This document shows positions 8,970-35,822 of a DNA stretch of 39,511 nucleotides, one piece after another; position 1 is the stretch's first letter; each line of letters starts with the position of its first letter. Under the pieces are notes generated by a model. That model made no database searches and was not told the DNA's origin. It saw only the letters and a list, made by a program, of their open reading frames with translations. Position numbers and translations under genes: made by a program. The DNA lies in NCBI GenBank assembly GCA_002067745.1, contig MVRU01000020.1, forward strand, positions 1 to 39,511, read 5' to 3'. This DNA comes from Syntrophus sp. PtaU1.Bin005 (GTDB lineage Bacteria; Desulfobacterota; Syntrophia; Syntrophales; Syntrophaceae).

Positions 8970-9557
8970 CTACCTCTTGCTCCACACCCCGTTATCATCC
9001 TGCACCCACCAGCCGGACTGGGACTTACTTCGCCAGCTGTTGGCGAATATCTTCATGATCTGTGGAACGGATTCAGAACCGAGTTTGTTGGCCGCTGCGA
9101 TTTCTCTGTAAAGGGCTGAACGGTCCCGATTTTCCTGGTCGATCAGCCTGCTGATCTGGCCTCTCTCCTGGAGATTCAAGACGGTGGTATCTTTCGCTTC
9201 GAGCAGACCGCTGTTGTTCTCGCCGATTGCGCCTCTGTCGTAGAAGGGTTTCAACTGCGGAAAACGGCCCTTGATCGATTCCTTTATTCCCCGGATGGCG
9301 GGAGTCGAAACATCGATGTTCATTTGCGCATATGCCTGACGTGTGCCAAAAAGCAAAGAGCTCATCACGTCCAGGCGGCTTGAAGGAGCCGGCGGCGGCG
9401 TCTCGGGGACCGCTTCGCTTCCCTTTGTCCGGACGTCATCGACGATCCTGTCCGCCGCCTTCTGGACTTCGGCGGCCGGAAAATAGATATTTACCGTAAC
9501 GCATGACACAATGAGAAAAACTGCGATCAGGCCTGCTGCCTTGATGATCTTCTGCAT
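8970..9557 (-). CDS. YdbL-family (DUF1318) lipoprotein
   Basis: A 195-residue protein. Residues 1-19 form a lipoprotein signal with the lipobox IVSC. The mature N-terminus, CVTVNIYFPAAEVQKAAD, is the DUF1318 signature. A Pro-rich stretch near 52-58 leads to the C-terminal half, including the region around NRDRSALYREIAAAN (about 143-157) that defines YdbL-like proteins. In Escherichia coli, YdbL is a soluble periplasmic helper of the YdbH-YnbE lipid bridge. Here the protein is lipid-anchored and lies 48 bp downstream of a YdbH-like gene. No ynbE is present, so the lipidated beta-strand-like N-terminus may do part of YnbE's job (inference). Good start context: AGGAGG lies upstream. Confidence 0.85.
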   Translation of the reverse strand: MQKIIKAAGLIAVFLIVSCVTVNIYFPAAEVQKAADRIVDDVRTKGSEAVPETPPPAPSSRLDVMSSLLFGTRQAYAQMNIDVSTPAIRGIKESIKGRFPQLKPFYDRGAIGENNSGLLEAKDTTVLNLQERGQISRLIDQENRDRSALYREIAAANKLGSESVPQIMKIFANSWRSKSQSGWWVQDDNGVWSKR

Positions 9558-9605
9558 AATCCCTCCTGGTAGAAATAGATTGTTGAGGCTTCTTATAGCA
9601 CAATT

Positions 9606-12218
9606 CTACCCCGATGGCACATCCTTACTTTGCTGCCGCGGTTGGAACAGTCGGCCCATCCGCTCCGACATGTCCTTGAAACTGATGGAATTATCGGGAT
9701 TCTGGTTGACCATGTCAATGCCGCGAAAGGTGGATCTTCGTATGAGATATTCTTTGCCTCCTTCGCGAATCAGGCCTCTCAGTGAAAAGAGATCATCTGA
9801 CAGCGTGCATCGGATGCCGATTTCGCTGTAGGGGTACTGGGAGAAAAAGCGGTTCAAGCCGCTGTTGAGAATGTCGGAAATGGTTTCAGAGCCGGTGCTG
9901 ATGATGGAAAGATTTTTGATTGCGTCCACACTGATTGCCTGGGGCACCTTTCGGCTTCTGTCCGACGTGATGACCAGATCGAAGCGGGACGGCTGGCCGT
10001 ATTCCATCGTGAAGTTCTTCAATGAGCCCTGAATCAGGCCCGTCATCCGGCCGATCTTGATGTTCGAGGTGACCTCCTCAAGGTCGATAGCGTCGAAGGC
10101 CACATCGGCGCCGAAGAAGCGGGACGGTGAGAAAATCCTGCCGGCGGAAAGATGGTCGATGGTGATCCGTCCGCCGAACACCCGGGCGACGAGACTTCCC
10201 CCGGCGGTCCACTTCCCTTCGCGAAAGAGGATGGGGGACAAATCCCCGTTGAGATCTCCCTCCAGGGCAATGGGAGCGGCCAGAGCGATCACCTCCCCGA
10301 GGTTGAGGCGACTGATCGACAGGCCGGCTTCAACGTTCATGTCGGGAAAAAGGAGATGATCGACCCTCAGCCCGTGAATGACAAGCTCGCCGCCGAAGAG
10401 AGAGACAACGACCGGCTCCGGAAGAAGAAACCTGTTGCCGGAGAGCACGACGGGAACATGCAGTTCCCCGATCGTGAGGCGTCCCTTTTGGAGCTCTTTA
10501 AAGGCCATAAAGCCCCGCCTGGAACCGGCTGGCGGTGCAGGGGTGCGGCCTGAAAGGGCCAGGTCGTATGGCAGGCGGATGGTTAAGCCGCTGAGCGCCA
10601 GCCCGTTCGAGGGAGAGAGCGCCGTCCCATCCTGGAGCGAGAGATCGCCTTCAATCACCTTTTGATCAGGCGACAGCGAGGCGGTCAGTTTGAGGTCCAG
10701 CGTGCCTTCCAGAGACAAATCCTGCAGGTTCGGATAGTTCTGGGTAACGTAATTCTGCAGCAGCGCGCCGAACAGGCGAAGGCAGGTTACGCCCTGTGCG
10801 GTCAGGGAAAAAATGGTGCGGCGCCGCGAAAGATCCGCCGTAAATGCGTAGGACCCCGTTTGAAAGAGGTCGAAGGTTCCGGAGGAATTCAATGAAAAGG
10901 GCTTGGTTTCGAAAAAGCCCTGTGAGTCGACGGCCAGCCTCTGCCCCTTGAAATCCTGGTAGTATTGACCCCAGAGAATCTCGCCGTCTTTGCCTGTCAT
11001 TTTTGCCGTGAAACGGCCTTTCCGCTTTTTTTCAGGCGATCCGAGTTTCATCTCCATTCTGCCGGTGATCCGCTCTCCGGCCTTCGTGTGGTCCGCCGAG
11101 GCGAAAGCGCCCTCGCTGAGGTCGATAACGGCCGCGGCCTTCCAGAACGCCGATCCGTCGGCGTATCGGCCTTCCGTCTCAAGATCAACGGTGCCCTTTC
11201 CCTGGAACGTCCAGTCCCTGTAATCCTCGGGCAAAAGGGGATTAACCAGGGAAAAGATCCGGGAAAGATTCAGGTTGAAGGCGCGCAGGGTGGCATTCCA
11301 GCTTCCAGGCTTTACCGTCCCCGTTGCCTGCCCCTTCAGGCTTCCGGCATCGGCGCCGGACGCTTCAAAGGATGTAAGGGAAAATCCGGACGTTTTCTGG
11401 TTGTAGGAAAGATTGAACTTCGTTTTGATGTCCTGTATCGAAATCCGTTCCGATCCGTTGCTGCGGGAGAAATTCCTGATGACGGCAGAGGCCCCGTCGA
11501 AACGGAGGACATCGGCGGAAAGACCCAGCTGAGTATCGAGCTTTCCTTCGGTGATCTTGAGCTGCCCGAAGGAGCCGGATTCAAGGGATAGTTGAAGGGA
11601 TCCGGCCCCGGAAGGCCGCGGAGACAGGCGGGACAGGTCGAGAGATACCCCGAGGGAACCCCGGCCGGCCATGTCCGACGTCCTGACGTCAAAGCGGCTT
11701 TTGCCGTAAAGCCTGCCGCCTCCCTCAGGGTTGAAATCCCTGATGGTCAGGTCCATTCCCGGAAGGACATAGGCGGAAGACTCCGTCTCCAGCTCCAGTT
11801 CGCCGTCCTTCATCTCGAGAAGACGCACCGGTGGCAGTTTCCTGAGGACCGCAAAGGGATCCGTGTCCGATTTTTCCTTTTTCAGAAAAAAGGTGAATTT
11901 CGGACCGGTAAGAAGGATCTTCTCCACCTGGATGTTCAGTCCAGCCGAGGCAGCGGCATGGATCTCGGCCCGGTCCAGAGAAAGATCGTAACCCCTGTCC
12001 CGGAGGGTTTGAACGCGAAGCCCGTTTACACGGATATTCAGAGGAGGATGAATCGAAATGTCGTCGACGTGCATTGAAAGGCCCGTCAACGGCTCCATCC
12101 AGCCCGCAATGGTATTGACAGCCCGGGCTGATTGGAGAAGAGCGGCCAATCCGGCCAGAACGGCAAGTAAAACAGCGAAAACAACGGCAATCCGTAGGGC
12201 AATCTTTTTTTTGTTCAT
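9606..12218 (-). CDS. ydbH: YdbH-like AsmA-family intermembrane lipid-transport protein
   Basis: An 870-residue protein with an N-terminal membrane anchor (about residues 8-30). A long periplasmic region of repeated short beta strands follows, as in AsmA-like bridge proteins that carry phospholipid between inner and outer membranes. The C-terminal third matches the YdbH/DUF3971-type region: the segment GRITIDHLSAGRIFSPSRFFGADVAFDAIDLEEV and the final part around ISTGSETISDILNSGLNRFFSQYPYSEIGIRC are typical. It is followed 48 bp later by a YdbL-like lipoprotein, the usual partner. Its N-terminal part is less conserved, so a more distant AsmA relative is possible, but the pairing favours YdbH. 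A promoter candidate lies about 65 bp upstream. Confidence 0.82.
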   Translation of the reverse strand: MNKKKIALRIAVVFAVLLAVLAGLAALLQSARAVNTIAGWMEPLTGLSMHVDDISIHPPLNIRVNGLRVQTLRDRGYDLSLDRAEIHAAASAGLNIQVEKILLTGPKFTFFLKKEKSDTDPFAVLRKLPPVRLLEMKDGELELETESSAYVLPGMDLTIRDFNPEGGGRLYGKSRFDVRTSDMAGRGSLGVSLDLSRLSPRPSGAGSLQLSLESGSFGQLKITEGKLDTQLGLSADVLRFDGASAVIRNFSRSNGSERISIQDIKTKFNLSYNQKTSGFSLTSFEASGADAGSLKGQATGTVKPGSWNATLRAFNLNLSRIFSLVNPLLPEDYRDWTFQGKGTVDLETEGRYADGSAFWKAAAVIDLSEGAFASADHTKAGERITGRMEMKLGSPEKKRKGRFTAKMTGKDGEILWGQYYQDFKGQRLAVDSQGFFETKPFSLNSSGTFDLFQTGSYAFTADLSRRRTIFSLTAQGVTCLRLFGALLQNYVTQNYPNLQDLSLEGTLDLKLTASLSPDQKVIEGDLSLQDGTALSPSNGLALSGLTIRLPYDLALSGRTPAPPAGSRRGFMAFKELQKGRLTIGELHVPVVLSGNRFLLPEPVVVSLFGGELVIHGLRVDHLLFPDMNVEAGLSISRLNLGEVIALAAPIALEGDLNGDLSPILFREGKWTAGGSLVARVFGGRITIDHLSAGRIFSPSRFFGADVAFDAIDLEEVTSNIKIGRMTGLIQGSLKNFTMEYGQPSRFDLVITSDRSRKVPQAISVDAIKNLSIISTGSETISDILNSGLNRFFSQYPYSEIGIRCTLSDDLFSLRGLIREGGKEYLIRRSTFRGIDMVNQNPDNSISFKDMSERMGRLFQPRQQSKDVPSG

Positions 12219-15536: not shown

Positions 15537-16025
15537 TTACAGCTCCTCGTTCCGCCTCTTGAGCATATCCACGATCAGAAAAAGGGCTCCTATGGAGATG
15601 GCGGAGTCGGCGACGTTGAAGGCGGGCCAGTGATAAGGTCCGATGTAAACGTCGAGAAAGTCGATAACCTCACCAAAACGGTATCGATCCGCCAGATTTC
15701 CCAGGGCGCCGGCGAGGATGAAGGCAAGGGGAATCAGGAGCCACAGGTCTTCGATTTTGTTGTGAAGAAGGTAGTACAGGATGAGGCCTGCGGCCACCAG
15801 GGTCACGAGGGAAAAAAACGCCCCCCTGAAAAAAGGGGACGCATTGGACAGAAAACCAAAAGCGGCTCCAGGGTTTCGGATGTAGGTCAGGTTGAAGAAT
15901 CCTGAAATGACCGGGACGGACTCGTAGAGCTGGAACGAGGAAACGACATAGCACTTCGTGAGCTGATCCAGCAGTATCACGAGCCCTGCCGTGAGAAAGA
16001 AGATGAGGAGGCTTTTCCTGGTCAT
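15537..16025 (-). CDS. lspA: Lipoprotein signal peptidase (signal peptidase II)
   Basis: A 162-residue inner-membrane aspartic protease with four transmembrane segments, full length. It cuts the signal peptide from prolipoproteins after lipid attachment. Conserved motifs are DQLTK (about 20-24), the segment RNPGAAFG (50-57), GNLADR (109-114), the catalytic Asp122 in EVIDF, and Asp140 in FNVADS. It lies 2 bp after the ileS stop codon on the same strand, the common ileS-lspA arrangement. It would process the lipoproteins seen elsewhere in this window. Confidence 0.97.
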   Translation of the reverse strand: MTRKSLLIFFLTAGLVILLDQLTKCYVVSSFQLYESVPVISGFFNLTYIRNPGAAFGFLSNASPFFRGAFFSLVTLVAAGLILYYLLHNKIEDLWLLIPLAFILAGALGNLADRYRFGEVIDFLDVYIGPYHWPAFNVADSAISIGALFLIVDMLKRRNEEL

Positions 16026-16027
16026 GA

Positions 16028-18829
16028 TCAGGCCCGGAGATTCTCAAGGCACCGGTCACAGATCCCGGGATGCTCGGAATCTCCGCCTACCGCTTCACTA
16101 TACATCCAGCAGCGGTTGCATTTGACGCCCCTGGCGCGCGTCACATCGATCAGCAGCCCTTCGAAATCCGATCCCGGGCAGGGAGCCGGTTCCGACATCC
16201 CGGCGGCGGGGACGATTCTCATCTGGGAAACAATCAGGAGGCTCCGCAATTCTTCAAGATGAGCTTCGAGAAAGGCCCTCAGATTCTCCGGTGGTGCCAG
16301 ATCAATGCAGGCATCAAGAGAATGCCCGATGATTTTGTTCTTCCTGGCCGCTTCGATGACCTTGCCGATCTCGCCCTTCAGGGCAATCATCCTGGTCCAC
16401 CCGTCGGCGAGTTCCGTATCCGTATAGGCCGCATCTACATCCGGGAACTGGGCGAGGTGAACGCTTGCGGCTTTGCCTTCATAGGAGGGAAGGGCCGCCC
16501 AGATCTCTTCCGCGGTAAAGGTCAGAATGGGGGCGAGAAGCCTTGTCAGGGAGCTGGCAATCGAAAACATGGCCGTCTGTGCCGATCGGCGCTGCCTGGA
16601 ATCGGCCCTGGAGGTGTAAAGCCGGTCCTTGAGCACATCGAGGTAAAGGGAGCTCAAGTCGACCGTGCAGAACTGATAGAGAGCGGAAAAGGCGCCATGG
16701 AACTGAAAGCTGTCATAGGCTGCCTTGACTTTCTGGATCAGCTCCTGGAGCCGGTGCAGGGCCCAGCGGTCCATGGGCTCCATCTCCCCGTAGGGGAGGG
16801 AATGCGAAGCGACGTCGAAGTCATAGAGGTTTCCCAGGATAAAGCGGCTGGTATTGCGGATCCGGCGATAGGCTTCCACCAGTCGCTTGAGGATTTCGTC
16901 GGAAATGCGGATGTCATCGGTATAATCCGCCGAAGCCACCCAGAGGCGCAGGATTTCCGCACCGTACGCGTCAATGACCTGGTGGGATTCAATGACGTTG
17001 CCCACGGATTTGGACATCTTCTTGCCCTCTCCGTCTACGACGAAGCCGTGAGTCAGGACGTTGCGGTATGGGGCGCGGTTCCGCGTTCCCACCGATTCAA
17101 GCAGCGAAGAATGAAACCAGCCTCGGTGCTGGTCGTTGCCCTCCAGGTACAGATCTGACGGGGAGCGGAGGTTGGGCCAGCGCTCAAGGACGGCGGCGTG
17201 GCTGACTCCGGAATCGAACCAGACATCGAGAATGTTCGTTTCCTTGTGGAATTCAGTCCCCCGACACTCCGGGCAGAGGGTTCCCGGCGGAAGGAGGTCC
17301 GCCGCCTCCCGCTCGAACCACACGTCGGCGCCGAACTGGCGTACCAGGCTCACCAGGTGATTCATGATCTCCGACGTCATCAGGTGCGCTCCGCAGTTCT
17401 CGCAGTAGAACATGGTGATCGGCACGCCCCAGAGGCGCTGGCGGGAGATGCACCAGTCCGGGCGGTTTTCGATCATCCCGTAAATCCGGTCCCTTCCCCA
17501 GGAGGGAATCCAGCGCACGCTTTCCACCGCTTCCAGCGCCTTTTTCCTCAGGTCGTTCTTTTCCATGGAAATGAACCATTGCTCCGTGGAGCGGAAGATG
17601 ATGGGGCTCTTGCACCGCCAGCAGTGAGGATAGGAATGTTCGATATCCACAAGGCCGAGGAGGGCGCCGACTTCCTTGAGCTTCCGGTTGACGCTGTCAT
17701 TGGCGTCGAAGACGAACTCTCCGGCGAAATCGGCCACGTCGGAGGTAAAGCGGCCGTCTGCATCGACGGGGGCGTAGTTGTCAAGGCCGTATTTCATGCC
17801 GATTTCGTAGTCTTCCTGCCCGTGGCCCGGGGCAATGTGGACACAGCCTGTTCCGGCGTCGAGGGTCACAAAAGGAGCCAGGATCACGAGACTTTCCCGA
17901 TCGATCAGGGGATGGCGGGCTTTGAGCCCCTCGAGGACCGCACCGGGAAATTCATCCAGGATTTCATAGGATTTGCCGCGGAAACCGAAGGCGTCGATGC
18001 AGTAATCCAGCATGTCCTTGGCAAGGATCAGCACATCCTCGTCGAACGAGACCGCGATGTACTCGAATTCCTCATGGAGGGCGATGGCCAGATTGGCGGG
18101 TATTGTCCACGGCGTTGTCGTCCAGATGACGATGCTGACCTTCTTTTCGGCCAGTTTGGGACGAACCGCCGCGATATCGGAAATCAAGGGGAACTTCACA
18201 TAGATCGAGGGTGTGGAGTGATCGGCATATTCCACTTCTGCCTCGGCCAGCGCCGTCTTGCAGGAGGCGCACCAGTAAACGGGCTTCTTGCCTTTGTAAA
18301 CCGAACCGCTCAGGTAAAGCTTGCCGAACTCCTCGACCGTGGTCGCCTCGTAATCGTAGCTCATGGTCAGATAGGGATTGTCCCACTCCCCGAATACGCC
18401 TAGCCGCTTGAACTGCTCCCTCTGGATATCCACGAATTTATCGGCGTATACCCGGCAGAGGCGCCTTTTTTCAGCCTGGGACAATTCCGCCTTTTTCTCG
18501 CCGAGTTCCTTATCCACCTGATGCTCGATGGGCAGGCCGTGGCAGTCCCATCCGGGCACAAACACACAGTCATAGCCCGTCATGCTTCTGGACTTGATGA
18601 CGATGTCCTTGATGATCTTGTTCAGGGCGGTTCCAAGATGGATGTTGCCGTTGGCGTAGGGTGGTCCGTCGTGAAGAATGTATGTTTTCCGACCCGTTGA
18701 AACCTCACGAATCAGGTCATAAATGTGCATTTCATCCCATTTTTTGAGCTGTTCCGGTTCTTTCTTGGTGAGGTTCGCCTTCATGGGGAAATCTGTTCTG
18801 GGCAGGTTCAGGCTTTCTTTGTAATCCAT
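16028..18829 (-). CDS. ileS: Isoleucyl-tRNA synthetase
   Basis: A 933-residue class I aminoacyl-tRNA synthetase that charges tRNA-Ile in the cytoplasm. I chose ATG 18829, which has GAGGAG about 7 nt upstream; the open frame runs further but without protein-like sequence. The N-terminal part has DGPPYANGNIHLGTALNK with the HLGT (HIGH-type) signature. The CP1 editing domain follows (for example WTTTPWTIPANLAI). KMSKS in GEGKKMSKSVGNVI is the catalytic loop. The C-terminus has the zinc-binding cysteines CNRCWMYSEAV...CDRC. Residue composition and length are normal for the bacterial type (IleS1). It is transcribed together with lspA. A leader with a terminator-like hairpin lies upstream. Confidence 0.98.
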   Translation of the reverse strand: MDYKESLNLPRTDFPMKANLTKKEPEQLKKWDEMHIYDLIREVSTGRKTYILHDGPPYANGNIHLGTALNKIIKDIVIKSRSMTGYDCVFVPGWDCHGLPIEHQVDKELGEKKAELSQAEKRRLCRVYADKFVDIQREQFKRLGVFGEWDNPYLTMSYDYEATTVEEFGKLYLSGSVYKGKKPVYWCASCKTALAEAEVEYADHSTPSIYVKFPLISDIAAVRPKLAEKKVSIVIWTTTPWTIPANLAIALHEEFEYIAVSFDEDVLILAKDMLDYCIDAFGFRGKSYEILDEFPGAVLEGLKARHPLIDRESLVILAPFVTLDAGTGCVHIAPGHGQEDYEIGMKYGLDNYAPVDADGRFTSDVADFAGEFVFDANDSVNRKLKEVGALLGLVDIEHSYPHCWRCKSPIIFRSTEQWFISMEKNDLRKKALEAVESVRWIPSWGRDRIYGMIENRPDWCISRQRLWGVPITMFYCENCGAHLMTSEIMNHLVSLVRQFGADVWFEREAADLLPPGTLCPECRGTEFHKETNILDVWFDSGVSHAAVLERWPNLRSPSDLYLEGNDQHRGWFHSSLLESVGTRNRAPYRNVLTHGFVVDGEGKKMSKSVGNVIESHQVIDAYGAEILRLWVASADYTDDIRISDEILKRLVEAYRRIRNTSRFILGNLYDFDVASHSLPYGEMEPMDRWALHRLQELIQKVKAAYDSFQFHGAFSALYQFCTVDLSSLYLDVLKDRLYTSRADSRQRRSAQTAMFSIASSLTRLLAPILTFTAEEIWAALPSYEGKAASVHLAQFPDVDAAYTDTELADGWTRMIALKGEIGKVIEAARKNKIIGHSLDACIDLAPPENLRAFLEAHLEELRSLLIVSQMRIVPAAGMSEPAPCPGSDFEGLLIDVTRARGVKCNRCWMYSEAVGGDSEHPGICDRCLENLRA

Positions 18830-18866
18830 GTGTAACTCCTCGAAATTCAATGAAAAAAGGAATATT

Positions 18867-18897
18867 AAAAAATCCTTCGGCTGAGATCTCGGCTCAG
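18867..18897 (-). promoter_or_regulatory. Terminator-like hairpin in the ileS leader
   Basis: On the minus strand CTGAG and CTCAG (18893-18897 and 18881-18885) form a 5-bp stem; an outer TCCT/AGGA pairing is possible, and a run of six T follows. It lies about 40 nt ahead of the ileS start. The T-box sequence typical of Gram-positive ileS leaders is absent. Confidence 0.35.
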
Positions 18898-19005
18898 GAG
18901 AAAGAAAATAAAGATGCAGTCGAAGCGGCAAGGGCTTAGCAGGAGCGAATATCCAGTTTTTCCGACGGGATGTCTGTCGCCGTGCATCGGCCAAGGCTGT
19001 GCCCT

Positions 19006-28203: not shown

Positions 28204-29283
28204 TTATGTCCTGACGTGTTTGAAACGATACAGCGCAGCCGCTCCGAAGAGGAGGTTTGCCAGCCAGGCCGCGAGAAGGGGAGGGAGGTTTCCCGATCTT
28301 CCCAGAGACATGGCGAAGGCGTAAAGAATCCAGTAAGAAAATCCAATGGTGACGCCGACGAAGATGCTTCCCGCAAGCCCTCCGCTCCGTTCTGTTTTCA
28401 CGGAGAAGGAGATTCCGAGAATGGCCAGGATGACGCACACAAAGGGAAAGGCGATCTTTCCGTGCAGATCGGCCAGGTATCTCGTCGCGTCATAGCCTTC
28501 GGAACGAATTTTCCGTACATACTTTCTTAATTCAAAATATCCCATCTGCTCGGAATCTTTCTGGACTACCTGAAAATCCGACGGCTTTTCGGGCAGGTCC
28601 AGGATTTTTTCATCAAAGCGCTCCATCAGGGGAAATCCCGCCTCGTCAAAGCGAACGATCAGAAGGTTGTAAAAGATCCAGTGATCCCTGTTCCACACGG
28701 CCCGATCCGCATCGACGCGCATGACGAGATTCATCCCGCGATCGAGGTAATTGAGGGTGATTCCCTGGAGGATGTTGTTTTTCGGATCAAAAAGCTTGAA
28801 GCTGTAAATCCCCCTGGCGCCTCGATACCAGATCTGTTCCTTTTTGAAAGCCCCGTGGAGTTCCTTCTTCTGGATGTCTACCCTCATGATGTATTCAGCT
28901 TTCGCGTTTGCATAGGGAGTGATCAATTCACTGAACAGAAAAGAGAAAAGCGTGATCAGGAAAGAAAGGATCATGATTGGAACGGACGAACGGTAGATGC
29001 TGATGCCGTTGGCCTTCATGGCCACAATTTCACTGTTTCTCGACAGGGATCCGAAGGTCAGCAAGGCCGATAGAAGAACGGCCGCAGGAATGGTTAACGA
29101 AAGCATCATGGGAATGCGGAAGAAGAAATAAGCGGCCACCTGATCAAAGGAGGCGCTTTTTCTGGCGAGGATCCTGAGCTGGTCAAAAAACTCGACGATG
29201 AGAAAAAGCGAGAGAAAAGAGACCATGACCAGGAGAAAAAATCTGAGAAATTCTCTTGTTATATAGCGATCGAGGGTGATCAT
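28204..29283 (-). CDS. lptG: LPS export permease LptG
   Basis: A 359-residue inner-membrane permease of the LptB2FG ABC transporter that extracts lipopolysaccharide from the inner membrane and passes it to LptC. N-terminal TM helices (about 10-30, 55-80, 97-120), a periplasmic beta-jellyroll domain (about 130-260) and three C-terminal TM helices are visible. The family pattern YITREFLRFFLLVMVSFLSLF and the AVLLSALLTFGSLSRNSEIVAMKANGISIYR segment are clear. Its ATG overlaps the lptF stop by 4 bp, so the pair is translationally coupled. I assign G rather than F by order and by similarity; the two are paralogs and a swap is possible. Confidence 0.9.
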   Translation of the reverse strand: MITLDRYITREFLRFFLLVMVSFLSLFLIVEFFDQLRILARKSASFDQVAAYFFFRIPMMLSLTIPAAVLLSALLTFGSLSRNSEIVAMKANGISIYRSSVPIMILSFLITLFSFLFSELITPYANAKAEYIMRVDIQKKELHGAFKKEQIWYRGARGIYSFKLFDPKNNILQGITLNYLDRGMNLVMRVDADRAVWNRDHWIFYNLLIVRFDEAGFPLMERFDEKILDLPEKPSDFQVVQKDSEQMGYFELRKYVRKIRSEGYDATRYLADLHGKIAFPFVCVILAILGISFSVKTERSGGLAGSIFVGVTIGFSYWILYAFAMSLGRSGNLPPLLAAWLANLLFGAAALYRFKHVRT

Positions 29284-30467
29284 GAATGTTTCTGACTCCT
29301 CCGGACCTTGTTGCGATTCAAAAATTTATGAAGGGCGGATGGGGACATCCATTTAATCTGCCGTTCTGCCGCCGCGGTCAAGTAAAGAGAAAGACCCGTC
29401 ATGCAGAAAAGGAGTGTCGGCATCCATGAGCCGAGCAGCGGGGGCAATTTCCCCGTAGTGACCAGCGCATCGCAGCCCAGCTGCAGAAGATAGTAGAGCA
29501 AGACCGTCATCAGCCCGAGGGTAAACCCCCTTGCCTTCACGGAACGGTGCCGGCTTTTGATGCCGAGAGGGATGGCGAGAATGCCGAACATCAGGCATGA
29601 AAAAGGGATGGTGAATTTTTTGTTCAGTTCGAGCACATATTCCCGATAATTTTTATCCGCCTGCCGGCTGTTCTTGATGTTGAGAATCAATTCCCGGGGA
29701 GTCATTTCTTTGGTTGACTTTGAACGCTCCTTCCGGGCTTCGCTCAACGCAGAGGGAACATCGAGATTGATGTCGTAATACTGGAAGTCCATCTTACGGA
29801 AATTTTTTTTATCCTTGGAAACAGAATAGGTGCTTCCGTTTTCAAGCCTCAAGGTGACGTCCATGGATTTCGGATCAGAGATCAGAAACGCCTGTTTGGC
29901 AATAATGGTCGCCGGCTCCTCGTCGGTTCGCTGATCTGAAACAAGGACCCCCTCCATGGAAAAGTCCCTGTCGGAAATCGTGTCCGCGTACAAAAGAATG
30001 CCTTTAAAGTCCGCGATAAACACTTTCTCCTTGATACCGATGCCTGCCTTGCTCCTCGCAACGCTGTACAGAAGGGTCTTCGTCGCCATATTGCTGTAGG
30101 GTGCGAGAAAAAAAGTAGAAAAGGCCGTAAGCAGCAGGGCCGCAAAAGCGATCAGAAGTATCGGCGGAGTCAGCCTGTACAGGCTGACTCCGGAGGCCTT
30201 CAAGACGGTGAATTCGCTGTCGCTGGAAATTCTTCCCAGGGCGATGAGAATGGAAATAAGCAGTGCTATGGGAATCGTAAAGACGAAGAACGAGGGCAGC
30301 AGGAAAAGGATCAGCTGCACGATGGCGATGAGGCCGACCCCTTTGTTGATCATCAGATCCATCAATTGGAGAATCTTTCCCATCAGCAGAACAAATGTCA
30401 TTACAAACAGCACGATGCCGAAGGGTTGCAGGATCTCTTTAATCAGGTAGCGATCGATGATTTTCAC
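29280..30467 (-). CDS. lptF: LPS export permease LptF
   Basis: About 395 residues from the GTG at 30467, which has AAGGAA 8 nt upstream and gives the family-like start (M)KIIDRYLIKEIL. The open frame extends 6 codons to a TTG. It has the same layout as LptG: TM helices at about 10-35, 50-75 and 95-118, a periplasmic domain, and C-terminal TM helices. The segment ALLISILIALGRISSDSEFTVLKASGVSLYRL is the conserved coupling-helix region of the family. With LptG and LptB it powers LPS transport. lptB, lptC and lptA are not in the window. Confidence 0.9.
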   Translation of the reverse strand: MKIIDRYLIKEILQPFGIVLFVMTFVLLMGKILQLMDLMINKGVGLIAIVQLILFLLPSFFVFTIPIALLISILIALGRISSDSEFTVLKASGVSLYRLTPPILLIAFAALLLTAFSTFFLAPYSNMATKTLLYSVARSKAGIGIKEKVFIADFKGILLYADTISDRDFSMEGVLVSDQRTDEEPATIIAKQAFLISDPKSMDVTLRLENGSTYSVSKDKKNFRKMDFQYYDINLDVPSALSEARKERSKSTKEMTPRELILNIKNSRQADKNYREYVLELNKKFTIPFSCLMFGILAIPLGIKSRHRSVKARGFTLGLMTVLLYYLLQLGCDALVTTGKLPPLLGSWMPTLLFCMTGLSLYLTAAAERQIKWMSPSALHKFLNRNKVRRSQKHS

Positions 30468-30539
30468 TTTAAACCGTTCCTTCAATGAAACAGACCCCTT
30501 TCCTGTACCGGAAGAATAAACTCCTCCAGTTAAAAGAAG

Positions 30540-33676: not shown

Positions 33677-34374
33677 TGAAGATCGGAGGCCTTCAGAAGG
33701 TATCCCTCATTGATTATCCCGGCGAAATCTCTTCCGTCATTTTCTGCCAGGGCTGCAATTTCCGCTGCCCCTACTGCCATAACCCGGAATTGGTCGATCC
33801 GGAGCTTTTTTCCGCCTGCCTTTGCGAAGATTCGATTCTCTCCTTTCACCGCAGCCGGATCGGTAAGCTCGATGCGGTGACCGTGACAGGAGGCGAGCCG
33901 ACGATTCAGCAGGATCTTGCGAGCTTTCTGAAGTGCCTGAAAGCGATGGGATATCAGATCAAGATCGACACCAACGGTTCGATGCCGGGGGTTCTTGCAA
34001 GGTTGATTGCTGAACATCTTGTGGATTACATCGCCATGGACATCAAGGGACCCCTTGAAAAGTACGGGAAAATTACCGGAATGGCGGGTGTTTCAGAACA
34101 GATTGCCGAATCCGTGCGATTGATCCTGTCCTCGAATGTAAACTATGAGTTTCGAACGACTGTCGTGGACTCGCTCCTGACGGAAGAGGATCTGCTCAAC
34201 GTCGGAGATCTGATAGCTCAATCAAGGCGCTATGCACTGCAGCCATTCGTTCCGTCAAAAGCGCTCCGTCCTCAGTATCTTGAAGAGAAGTCTCTTTCTC
34301 TTGAAACTCTTGCAAGGGTCAGGGGGCAGCTTGGGAAAAAGATTGATTCCGTTATCATACGGCCTTCAACATAG
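33676..34374 (+). CDS. nrdG: Anaerobic ribonucleotide reductase activating protein (radical SAM)
   Basis: A 232-residue radical SAM enzyme that makes the glycyl radical on NrdD. ATG 33676 overlaps the nrdD stop (TAATG), so the genes are coupled. The cluster motif CNFRCPYC (CX3CX2C, about residues 27-34) follows FCQG. TVTGGEPT (about 68-75) binds the AdoMet amino group, and KIDTNGSMP and the segment VDYIAMDIKGP are conserved. The C-terminus RRYALQPFVPSK is typical. It belongs to the longer, YjjW/PflA-like branch (TIGR02495) used by many anaerobes. The last 103 bp overlap, tail to tail, the end of the M48 protease gene. Confidence 0.95.
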   Translation: MKIGGLQKVSLIDYPGEISSVIFCQGCNFRCPYCHNPELVDPELFSACLCEDSILSFHRSRIGKLDAVTVTGGEPTIQQDLASFLKCLKAMGYQIKIDTNGSMPGVLARLIAEHLVDYIAMDIKGPLEKYGKITGMAGVSEQIAESVRLILSSNVNYEFRTTVVDSLLTEEDLLNVGDLIAQSRRYALQPFVPSKALRPQYLEEKSLSLETLARVRGQLGKKIDSVIIRPST

Positions 34375-35822
34375 GAAGAATAGCCCATTGCTTCCTCGGA
34401 ATCTTCCGTGGAGCTTGGTTTTGAAGATTTTCCGTTTTCGATAGCCTCAATTTCCTCTTCAATCTCCACCCTTTTTCGTTCCCCCGGTCCATAAAACTTC
34501 AAGGCCGCCTTGAAATGGTACAAGGCCATTTCCTTTTTCCGGTTTTTCTTGAAATACATCCCGAAATGGTAATGTGAGGCACCCTGGTCCTTCGTTCCTC
34601 CATAGGCCGTGGCAAGATGATAGTGGGCATCCGCTTCAATCGACGGCTTGTTTTCGATTTGTTTCAAGGTGTTCAATGCCTCCTGGAAACGTCCTTCAGC
34701 TTCGTAGGCGCGGCCCAGGAAAATAATGGTTTTTGAATTTTCAGGATTAATGGACAAAGCCCGAGACAGATAATAAATGGCATCCCGCGTCCGGCCGGCT
34801 CTGAAACATGCGATGCCCAGATCCCGGACGATGTCCTCATCGTTGGGAGAAAGATTCAGGGCTTCTTGAAAGGTCTTTATGGAATCCTCAGTCGATCCGA
34901 GTCTTTCCTGCGTCAAAGCCAAGCCGTAAAGAGCGTCAACATCGACGGGATTCGCCTGAACCGCACTTTGAAATTTGGTCAGCTTGAGTTCGGGATTTCT
35001 CCCGATGAAGGCAAGATAAATCTGAATCCTCGTCAATCCCCCGACAATGCTTTCCCGTCCTTCCGTCCGATATCGGACCTGGAGAAGACCATCGAGATAG
35101 CGGATTCTTTCGTCAGTTCCTGGATGGGTCAGAAAATAGGAAGGGATGCTTTTCGAGTAAAATTCGTATTTTCTCATGATTTTGAGAAAATCGAGCATTG
35201 ATTTCCCATTATAACCGGAAGCCACCAGGTAGGCCATACCAAGGCGGTCCGCCTCTTCTTCATGATCGCGGCTGTACTTGAGGTTCATGCTGGAAACCGC
35301 GGCCATGGAAAAACTTGTAAGTGCCGCGGCTGCCTCTCCGCCTCCTCCGAGAAAGGCCCCGGCCAAGATTGCCGCCAAGGCCGCGATATTCATCTTCGTG
35401 GATTTTTCAATGATGGAGGCGATGTGGCGGGCATTGATGTGGGCGACCTCGTGGGCAAGTACACCGGCCAACTCGCTTTCATTTTCACAGAGATTGATGA
35501 GACCCTTGTTGACATAGACATACCCGCCCGGGGTGGCAAAGGCATTGATGGCGGAGCTGTTGATGACGGAAAACTTGAATTCGAAGGGGGCTTTCGGTGA
35601 CGAAGCCAGGACAAGACGACCGATTTGATCTACGTAGTTCTGAATCTTCGGGTCTCGAATCAGAACCCTTCCCTTTGACAGTTTCTCGTAAAACTCTTTT
35701 CCCAGCTTTTTTTCATCTTCCAGGGTAAAAGACGCGTTGGCCGCCGGGCACGAAGTGAAGAGAAAAACAACGGCGAACGCTGCGATAAAAAATTTTTTGA
35801 TACAAAAAATGGAAAGATTCAT
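34272..35822 (-). CDS. BepA-like periplasmic M48 metalloprotease with TPR repeats
   Basis: A 516-residue protein. The signal peptide (about 1-30) ends either in a weak lipobox-like FTSC (Cys25) or at ANA-S. The M48 domain has SAINAFATPGG, the catalytic HEVAH (His124, Glu125, His128) and the third ligand in DHEEEADRLG. TPR repeats from about 275 to 470 (for example ALYGLALTQERLGSTEDSIKTFQEALNLSPN) complete the BepA-type layout. BepA in Escherichia coli checks and degrades stalled outer-membrane proteins such as LptD. The start has no clear ribosome binding site. The last 30-odd residues are encoded opposite the end of nrdG and look unlike the rest, as if an original stop had been lost. Confidence 0.88.
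   Translation of the reverse strand: MNLSIFCIKKFFIAAFAVVFLFTSCPAANASFTLEDEKKLGKEFYEKLSKGRVLIRDPKIQNYVDQIGRLVLASSPKAPFEFKFSVINSSAINAFATPGGYVYVNKGLINLCENESELAGVLAHEVAHINARHIASIIEKSTKMNIAALAAILAGAFLGGGGEAAAALTSFSMAAVSSMNLKYSRDHEEEADRLGMAYLVASGYNGKSMLDFLKIMRKYEFYSKSIPSYFLTHPGTDERIRYLDGLLQVRYRTEGRESIVGGLTRIQIYLAFIGRNPELKLTKFQSAVQANPVDVDALYGLALTQERLGSTEDSIKTFQEALNLSPNDEDIVRDLGIACFRAGRTRDAIYYLSRALSINPENSKTIIFLGRAYEAEGRFQEALNTLKQIENKPSIEADAHYHLATAYGGTKDQGASHYHFGMYFKKNRKKEMALYHFKAALKFYGPGERKRVEIEEEIEAIENGKSSKPSSTEDSEEAMGYSSYVEGRMITESIFFPSCPLTLARVSRERDFSSRY

Follow-up and report, generated by a model that had tools for sequence, protein, structure and literature searches.

A lipobox YdbL of Syntrophus sp. 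as a probable two-protein precursor of YnbE-like anchor and soluble helper

Results

Gene content of the locus

We analysed a ydbH-ydbL locus situated in a stretch of 39,511 nucleotides (hereafter, the window) of Syntrophus sp. PtaU1.Bin005 (contig MVRU01000020.1 of the assembly GCA_002067745.1; 2.9 Mb in 165 contigs, completeness 99.6%). Here a gene for a YdbH-like bridge protein is followed by a gene whose product starts with a lipobox and ends with a YdbL domain. The new element, as read from the sequence, is an internal Ala-x-Ala site of the signal peptidase I type, located in the linker ahead of the YdbL domain. The locus consists of the following parts.

9606..12218, minus strand: ydbH-like gene for an AsmA-superfamily bridge protein of 870 amino acids (aa), modelled as an N-terminal membrane helix and a long groove rich in beta structure
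9558..9605, minus strand: intergenic gap of 48 bp between ydbH and ydbL, where ynbE would not fit; both genes are in frame, and the ydbH stop codon is TAG
8970..9557, minus strand: gene of the predicted YnbE-like/YdbL precursor, 195 aa

The original prediction, made from the sequence of this stretch, had stated that the ydbH-like and ydbL-like genes are 48 bp apart, leaving no space for ynbE, and both the open reading frames and the gap were confirmed. The 870-aa protein has only a weak Pfam match to DUF748 (29.4 bits, the cut-off being 50) and no model above the cut-off; an iterative search starting from it in a small database reached Escherichia coli YdbH at 8.7e-48. In its predicted structure (mean pLDDT 82), a helix at residues 3-28 is followed by strands that form a long beta groove. 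Thus, judging from the sequence and the model, this neighbour is a divergent YdbH.

Parts of the 195-aa protein

Along the second gene, we distinguish the following segments, all on the minus strand.

9504..9557, minus strand: lipoprotein signal peptide, residues 1-18
9501..9503, minus strand: Cys19, predicted to be lipidated and to follow the signal peptidase II cut
9480..9500, minus strand: strand-like segment VTVNIYF, residues 20-26, sharing [IV]-T-[IV]-[ND] with YnbE; a strand in neither of the two models
9429..9476, minus strand: helix in the AlphaFold model, residues 28-43
9336..9428, minus strand: variable linker rich in Pro and charged residues, residues 44-74, hydrophobic just ahead of the site; mean pLDDT 56-67
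9327..9335, minus strand: internal Ala75-Tyr76-Ala77, a site of the signal peptidase I type with the predicted cut after Ala77
8973..9326, minus strand: YdbL (DUF1318) part, residues 78-195, the predicted soluble product

The lipobox I-V-S-C at residues 16-19, immediately followed by VTVNIYF, is located as the original prediction had described it. At the other end of the protein, PF07027 (DUF1318/YdbL) matches residues 100-195 at 1e-18 (68.1 bits, cut-off 27), and the AlphaFold model resembles the crystal structure of E. coli YdbL, 28oj, labelled by its depositors 'probable chaperone-like protein YdbL' (E-value 1.2e-4; TM-score 0.85 by target; 26% identity). Hence the domain downstream of the site is YdbL, by both sequence and predicted fold. 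In the model of the 195-aa protein alone, the YdbL domain has block pLDDT values of 95-99 from residue 81 on, and the block means are 56-67 over residues 41-80, where the Ala-x-Ala is situated in a coil. By this model, the coil being of low confidence, the site is accessible and lies outside the fold. E. coli YdbL is soluble and has its own N-terminal cleavable signal peptide, whereas the N-terminus here is a lipobox and the signal-peptidase-I-type site is internal, at residues 75-77.

Soluble and lipobox forms of YdbL in the phylum

We surveyed 297 genomes of the phylum and detected DUF1318 in 75; together with the window protein, this yields 80 hits, each of which was inspected individually. 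Short soluble YdbL proteins are accompanied by YnbE detectable with Pfam in class A (n = 6) and form class B (n = 16). The lipobox proteins comprise class C (n = 43), starting with CVT[VI]N[IV]YFPA or a near variant, class C' (n = 8), where two or three residues separate the Cys from TVN[VI][YF]FP, and class D (n = 7), which includes the remaining ones. Since 51 of the 80 hits carry an N-terminus of the lipobox plus VTVNIYF kind, it is not there by chance. A search of plasmids with the lipobox YdbL protein produced no match.

For the Syntrophus genome itself, the search for ynbE proposed in the original prediction revealed no Lipoprotein_19/YnbE with Pfam, and a broader YnbE-like profile gave no YnbE anywhere in the genome at E ≤ 10. 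The same prediction had suggested comparing DUF1318 lipoboxes with the presence of ynbE, and in this comparison the two forms differ. A separate YnbE-like lipoprotein was found by profile in all 21 genomes of the phylum with soluble YdbL, although 12 of these 21 genomes, together with E. coli, supplied the sequences for the profile (A3), so that its matches there arise by construction. At E ≤ 1e-3, the profile search found a separate YnbE-like gene in none of the 54 genomes with lipobox YdbL; one of them (G083) shows a borderline match of 0.0084 confined to profile positions 5-36. Pfam PF13617 alone detects YnbE in six genomes of the phylum.

In class B loci with ydbH upstream, 12 of the 13 gaps between ydbH and ydbL (168-393 bp) encode a short, divergent lipoprotein resembling PIHITIDVNVKVDRALDDFF, and the profile search located a small YnbE-like lipoprotein for the 13th (G181). 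A divergent YnbE-like family, PIHITIDVNVKVDRALDDFFGDID, missed by Pfam Lipoprotein_19, occurs at L096, L098, L105 and other class B loci. Among the lipobox forms, 42 of the 43 class C loci and all eight class C' loci have ydbH upstream, and the class C gap is shorter than 60 bp in 33 of 42 cases. At one locus (L064, genome G248), a small gene pair, by eye a module of the DUF433/toxin type, lies between ydbH and ydbL.

The internal Ala-x-Ala site

In the alignment of the class C proteins (n = 43), the region ahead of the domain contains two conserved islands. The first one, C19-T21-N23-Y25-F26-P27, is invariant. The second one, A75-x-A77, is situated within the variable linker, with Ala77 invariant and Ala75 retained in at least 90% of the proteins. 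Among 78 sequences less than 70% identical, position -1 is Ala in 76, the remaining two fitting after a small shift of the alignment, and position -3 is Ala in 75, Val in two and Cys in one, the other linker columns being variable. Adding 38 sequences from a second bacterial class (see below) gives 116 sequences at the same identity limit, with Ala at -1 in all 116, and Ala in 111, Val in three, Cys in one and Thr in one at -3. In the same set the lipidated Cys occupies its column in 110 rows; the other six are class C' rows, where the Cys is two residues earlier. Of the sequences in this collection, 36 were taken from genome_contigs by VTVNIYF-type patterns (best 80 of 139), which biases the VTVNIYF motif but not the Ala-x-Ala; L141, which lacks the motif or has masked letters, was excluded from the genome_contigs loci, and the AlphaFold rows were a set of 52 sequences of our own choice.

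The pattern does not depend on the alignment: a strict Ala-x-Ala occurs 5-20 residues ahead of the domain in 110 of the 116 sequences, whereas 1000 shuffles of each linker gave 25.9 such sequences on average and 43 at most. Both positions use all four Ala codons, and thus selection acts on the Ala residue. Bulky residues (Y, H, Q, W, F) prevail at -2, and Q, A, E or G at +1; hydrophobic residues directly precede the site. Small residues at -3 and -1 are the signature of signal peptidase I, and by its sequence the internal Ala-x-Ala resembles a site of this enzyme. An internal translation start was considered as the cause of the second site and rejected: just 20 of the 116 sequences have an ATG in the reading frame from Cys+20 up to the site (64 if GTG and TTG are allowed).

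Likeness of the anchor segment to YnbE

The order characteristic of YnbE, that is, a lipidated Cys followed by the strand motif [IV]-T-[IV]-[ND] and a helix, is also found in the window protein, the motif being read from the sequence and the helix from the model. The lipobox form opens with C-V-T-[VI]-N, and has T-x-N in common with YnbE. The original prediction had placed the YnbE strand right after the lipidated Cys, but this proved to hold for the lipobox form only: here the strand starts 0-3 residues past the Cys, whereas ITINMNV of E. coli YnbE begins 13 residues past it.

The expected pairing of VTVNIYF with YdbH was examined in a linked model, where the ydbH TAG codon of the window translation was read as Gln, yielding one chain YdbH-linker-YdbL with the signal peptide retained; this is a single chain rather than a multimer. 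Foldseek comparison of the linked model with the PDB gave only weak beta-rich matches, none of them specific.

The second class and the independence of the pattern

The second class was chosen via the genome of Cardiobacterium valvarum (G297; locus L182), and 229 genomes were searched. DUF1318 is present in 66 of them (67 hits), and YnbE-like genes in 20. The script counted 42 fused hits without YnbE, 20 soluble hits with YnbE and five soluble hits without YnbE. When the five unclear cases were read by eye, three proved to be fused, one (G522) turned out to be soluble with YnbE, and one exception remained, so that the final count is 45 fused hits, none with YnbE, and 22 soluble hits, 21 with YnbE. 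The sole exception, a soluble YdbL without YnbE (G387:C39), comes from a genome that also carries a fused copy. Pfam YnbE was found in none of 12 named genomes with the fused form, including metagenome-assembled genomes labelled Nitrospirae, Methylomirabilota, Binatota and Aquificota. Thus, as far as the sequences sampled go, the fused arrangement is widespread.

Fused and separate genes are split by one change both on the YdbH tree (73 rows) and on the DUF1318 tree (132 rows, few columns; built without the genome_contigs sequences). As the trees are unrooted, they are compatible both with fusion and with fission.

Discussion

Proposed processing

The lipobox, the motif, the Ala-x-Ala site and the gene order can be read directly in the sequence. 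On this basis and on the models, we suggest, with a probability of about 0.65, that the gene encodes a two-protein YnbE-YdbL precursor, which would be cut at Cys19 and again after Ala77, so that a lipopeptide resembling YnbE and a YdbL in soluble form would result. The precursor would be exported via Sec and then lipidated, with signal peptidase II cutting before Cys19; signal peptidase I would then cut after Ala77. The lipopeptide of approximately 59 residues would move to the outer membrane and dock on the YdbH C-terminus, and the soluble periplasmic YdbL of 118 residues would be released as the helper of the anchor. A single gene would set a 1:1 supply of the anchor and the helper, the latter being covalently tied to the anchor until the cut. 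The docking is proposed because of the published YdbH-YnbE bridge, for which beta-strand augmentation between the YdbH C-terminus and YnbE has been suggested (cited in PMC12045153), and the helper role follows the depositors' name of 28oj. On a wider scale, we consider it rather probable that, in a lineage extending from Desulfobacterota-type bacteria to Gammaproteobacteria, the docking lipoprotein and its helper are made as one precursor and cut by signal peptidase II at the N-terminus and by signal peptidase I in the middle.

Both enzymes are encoded in this genome: signal peptidase I (PF10502) on another contig, and signal peptidase II, required by the precursor model, in the window.

15561..15989, minus strand: lspA, signal peptidase II, outside the operon

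The lspA gene adjoins a gene for a class I tRNA synthetase, in all probability ileS. The window also contains two neighbouring genes of the LptF/LptG family and an M48 protease with tetratricopeptide repeats, BepA-like by its domain make-up, which are likewise involved in building the envelope; the envelope genes of the window are located at 28207-30485, 34275-35822 and 15561-18994, all on the minus strand.

Evidence against the precursor and alternative explanations

Several observations weigh against the precursor. First, the 195-aa protein has no match to Pfam Lipoprotein_19 (PF13617) at E ≤ 1, and alignment of the anchor with YnbE by hhalign has a probability of just 1-2%; this is above all 100 of 100 column shuffles, but column shuffling is a lenient control, since it also destroys the strand and helix pattern. 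Hence the sequence does no more than suggest that the anchor is homologous to YnbE: the anchor shares the motif and the place with YnbE and fails the profile test, and we suggest that it is YnbE-like in its working, its identity as YnbE being unproven. Second, VTVNIYF (residues 907-913 of the linked model) remains unpaired with pLDDT under 50, contrary to the pairing with YdbH originally predicted; this is a weak test without a positive control, and the model provides weak evidence against easy strand pairing. Third, the hydrophobic stretch ahead of the site exceeds the linker background, but falls short of the one in true signal peptides: its median best 8-mer is 1.96 in the second class and 0.90 in the other sequences, compared with 2.96 in soluble YdbL. 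Fourth, the class D proteins (7 of 80) have a lipobox and no Ala-x-Ala, and five of these seven still follow a YdbH-like gene (the context was judged by eye for two and by script for the others); thus, the site is not required for every lipobox form. Finally, as the split between fused and separate genes needs one change on both trees, the mutual exclusion of the fused form and YnbE is, by these sequences, one ancient event rather than replicated evidence, and should be counted once.

Four of the class D proteins (L071, L078, L083 and L085, from genomes G026, G063, G273 and G285) are a second lipobox YdbL, mostly of the form CTLAxVxVxVxxERTxLENQ. A YdbH-like gene is upstream in three of them; L085 covers just 635 bp upstream.

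If the protein stays whole, one lipidated outer-membrane protein would combine the YnbE anchor and the YdbL helper. The lipobox with the T-x-N strand motif beside the lipid and the lack of a separate ynbE are consistent with such a fusion, and class D suggests that fusions of this kind can exist. It leaves unexplained that, within a variable linker, the Ala-x-Ala is conserved as strictly as the Cys of the lipobox, and we regard this reading as unlikely. The original prediction had suggested one protein in both roles. The part that stands is that both are encoded in one gene and that a separate ynbE is missing; as for the simpler form of the bridge that it inferred, the near-invariant Ala-x-Ala lies between the anchor and the helper, hence the mature YdbL is probably released and unlipidated, and the bridge is probably not simpler.

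Alternatively, the Ala-x-Ala could be an uncut relic or a structural element, for example, the end of an amphipathic helix touching the membrane, while the N-terminus merely resembles YnbE and the lipidated YdbL has another partner. The weak hydrophobic stretch of many members, the low hhalign probability and the linked model lacking strand pairing would fit. However, a relic would decay across phyla, the site lies outside the confident fold, and the residue preferences fit signal peptidase I; we consider this explanation very improbable. Cutting at the same place by another envelope protease seems the least probable of all: the hydrophobic stretch is indeed shorter than is typical of substrates of signal peptidase I, but the rule of small residues at -3 and -1 points to signal peptidase I.

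Comparison with known systems and implications

The ydbH-ynbE-ydbL locus of E. coli was reportedly described by Kumar, Davis and Ruiz in 2024. Similarly to it, the Syntrophus locus starts with the YdbH-like gene and comprises a YdbL domain with the 28oj fold and a segment of the outer-membrane lipoprotein kind that carries the T-x-N strand motif; unlike in E. coli, ynbE and ydbL form one open frame, and the internal Ala-x-Ala site takes the place of the YdbL signal peptide. The anchor resembles Lipoprotein_19 in being a short lipidated segment with a beta-strand-like motif followed by a helix and adjoining ydbH, but it differs in lacking the Pfam match, in being fused to DUF1318 and in being present only where YnbE is absent. 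FbcH of Bradyrhizobium is a cytochrome b/c1 polyprotein with an internal signal-peptide-like site, which yields two envelope proteins. The gene considered here would likewise encode one bacterial precursor of two envelope proteins, the cut being predicted; in FbcH the internal site follows a membrane protein, whereas here it follows a lipoprotein, so that a single chain would be the substrate of two different signal peptidases. A literature search of titles and abstract openings revealed no paper describing YnbE and YdbL as fused, nor one describing the second site, the central PNAS 2024 paper and the P. aeruginosa YdbH paper being outside its reach.

As the domain searches show the fused genes just as DUF1318, a lipid bridge lacking ynbE can wrongly look incomplete. 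If the precursor is real, the helper would be released only after export and lipidation, which would couple assembly of the docking strand to its chaperone, and the family would be an unusual instance of a single bacterial protein being processed by signal peptidases I and II alike. The anchor and the helper seem to be tied in one chain with a cutting site almost unchanged across phyla, which suggests that YdbL acts on the anchor and has to be set free afterwards. This provides a testable prediction on how YnbE and YdbL cooperate.

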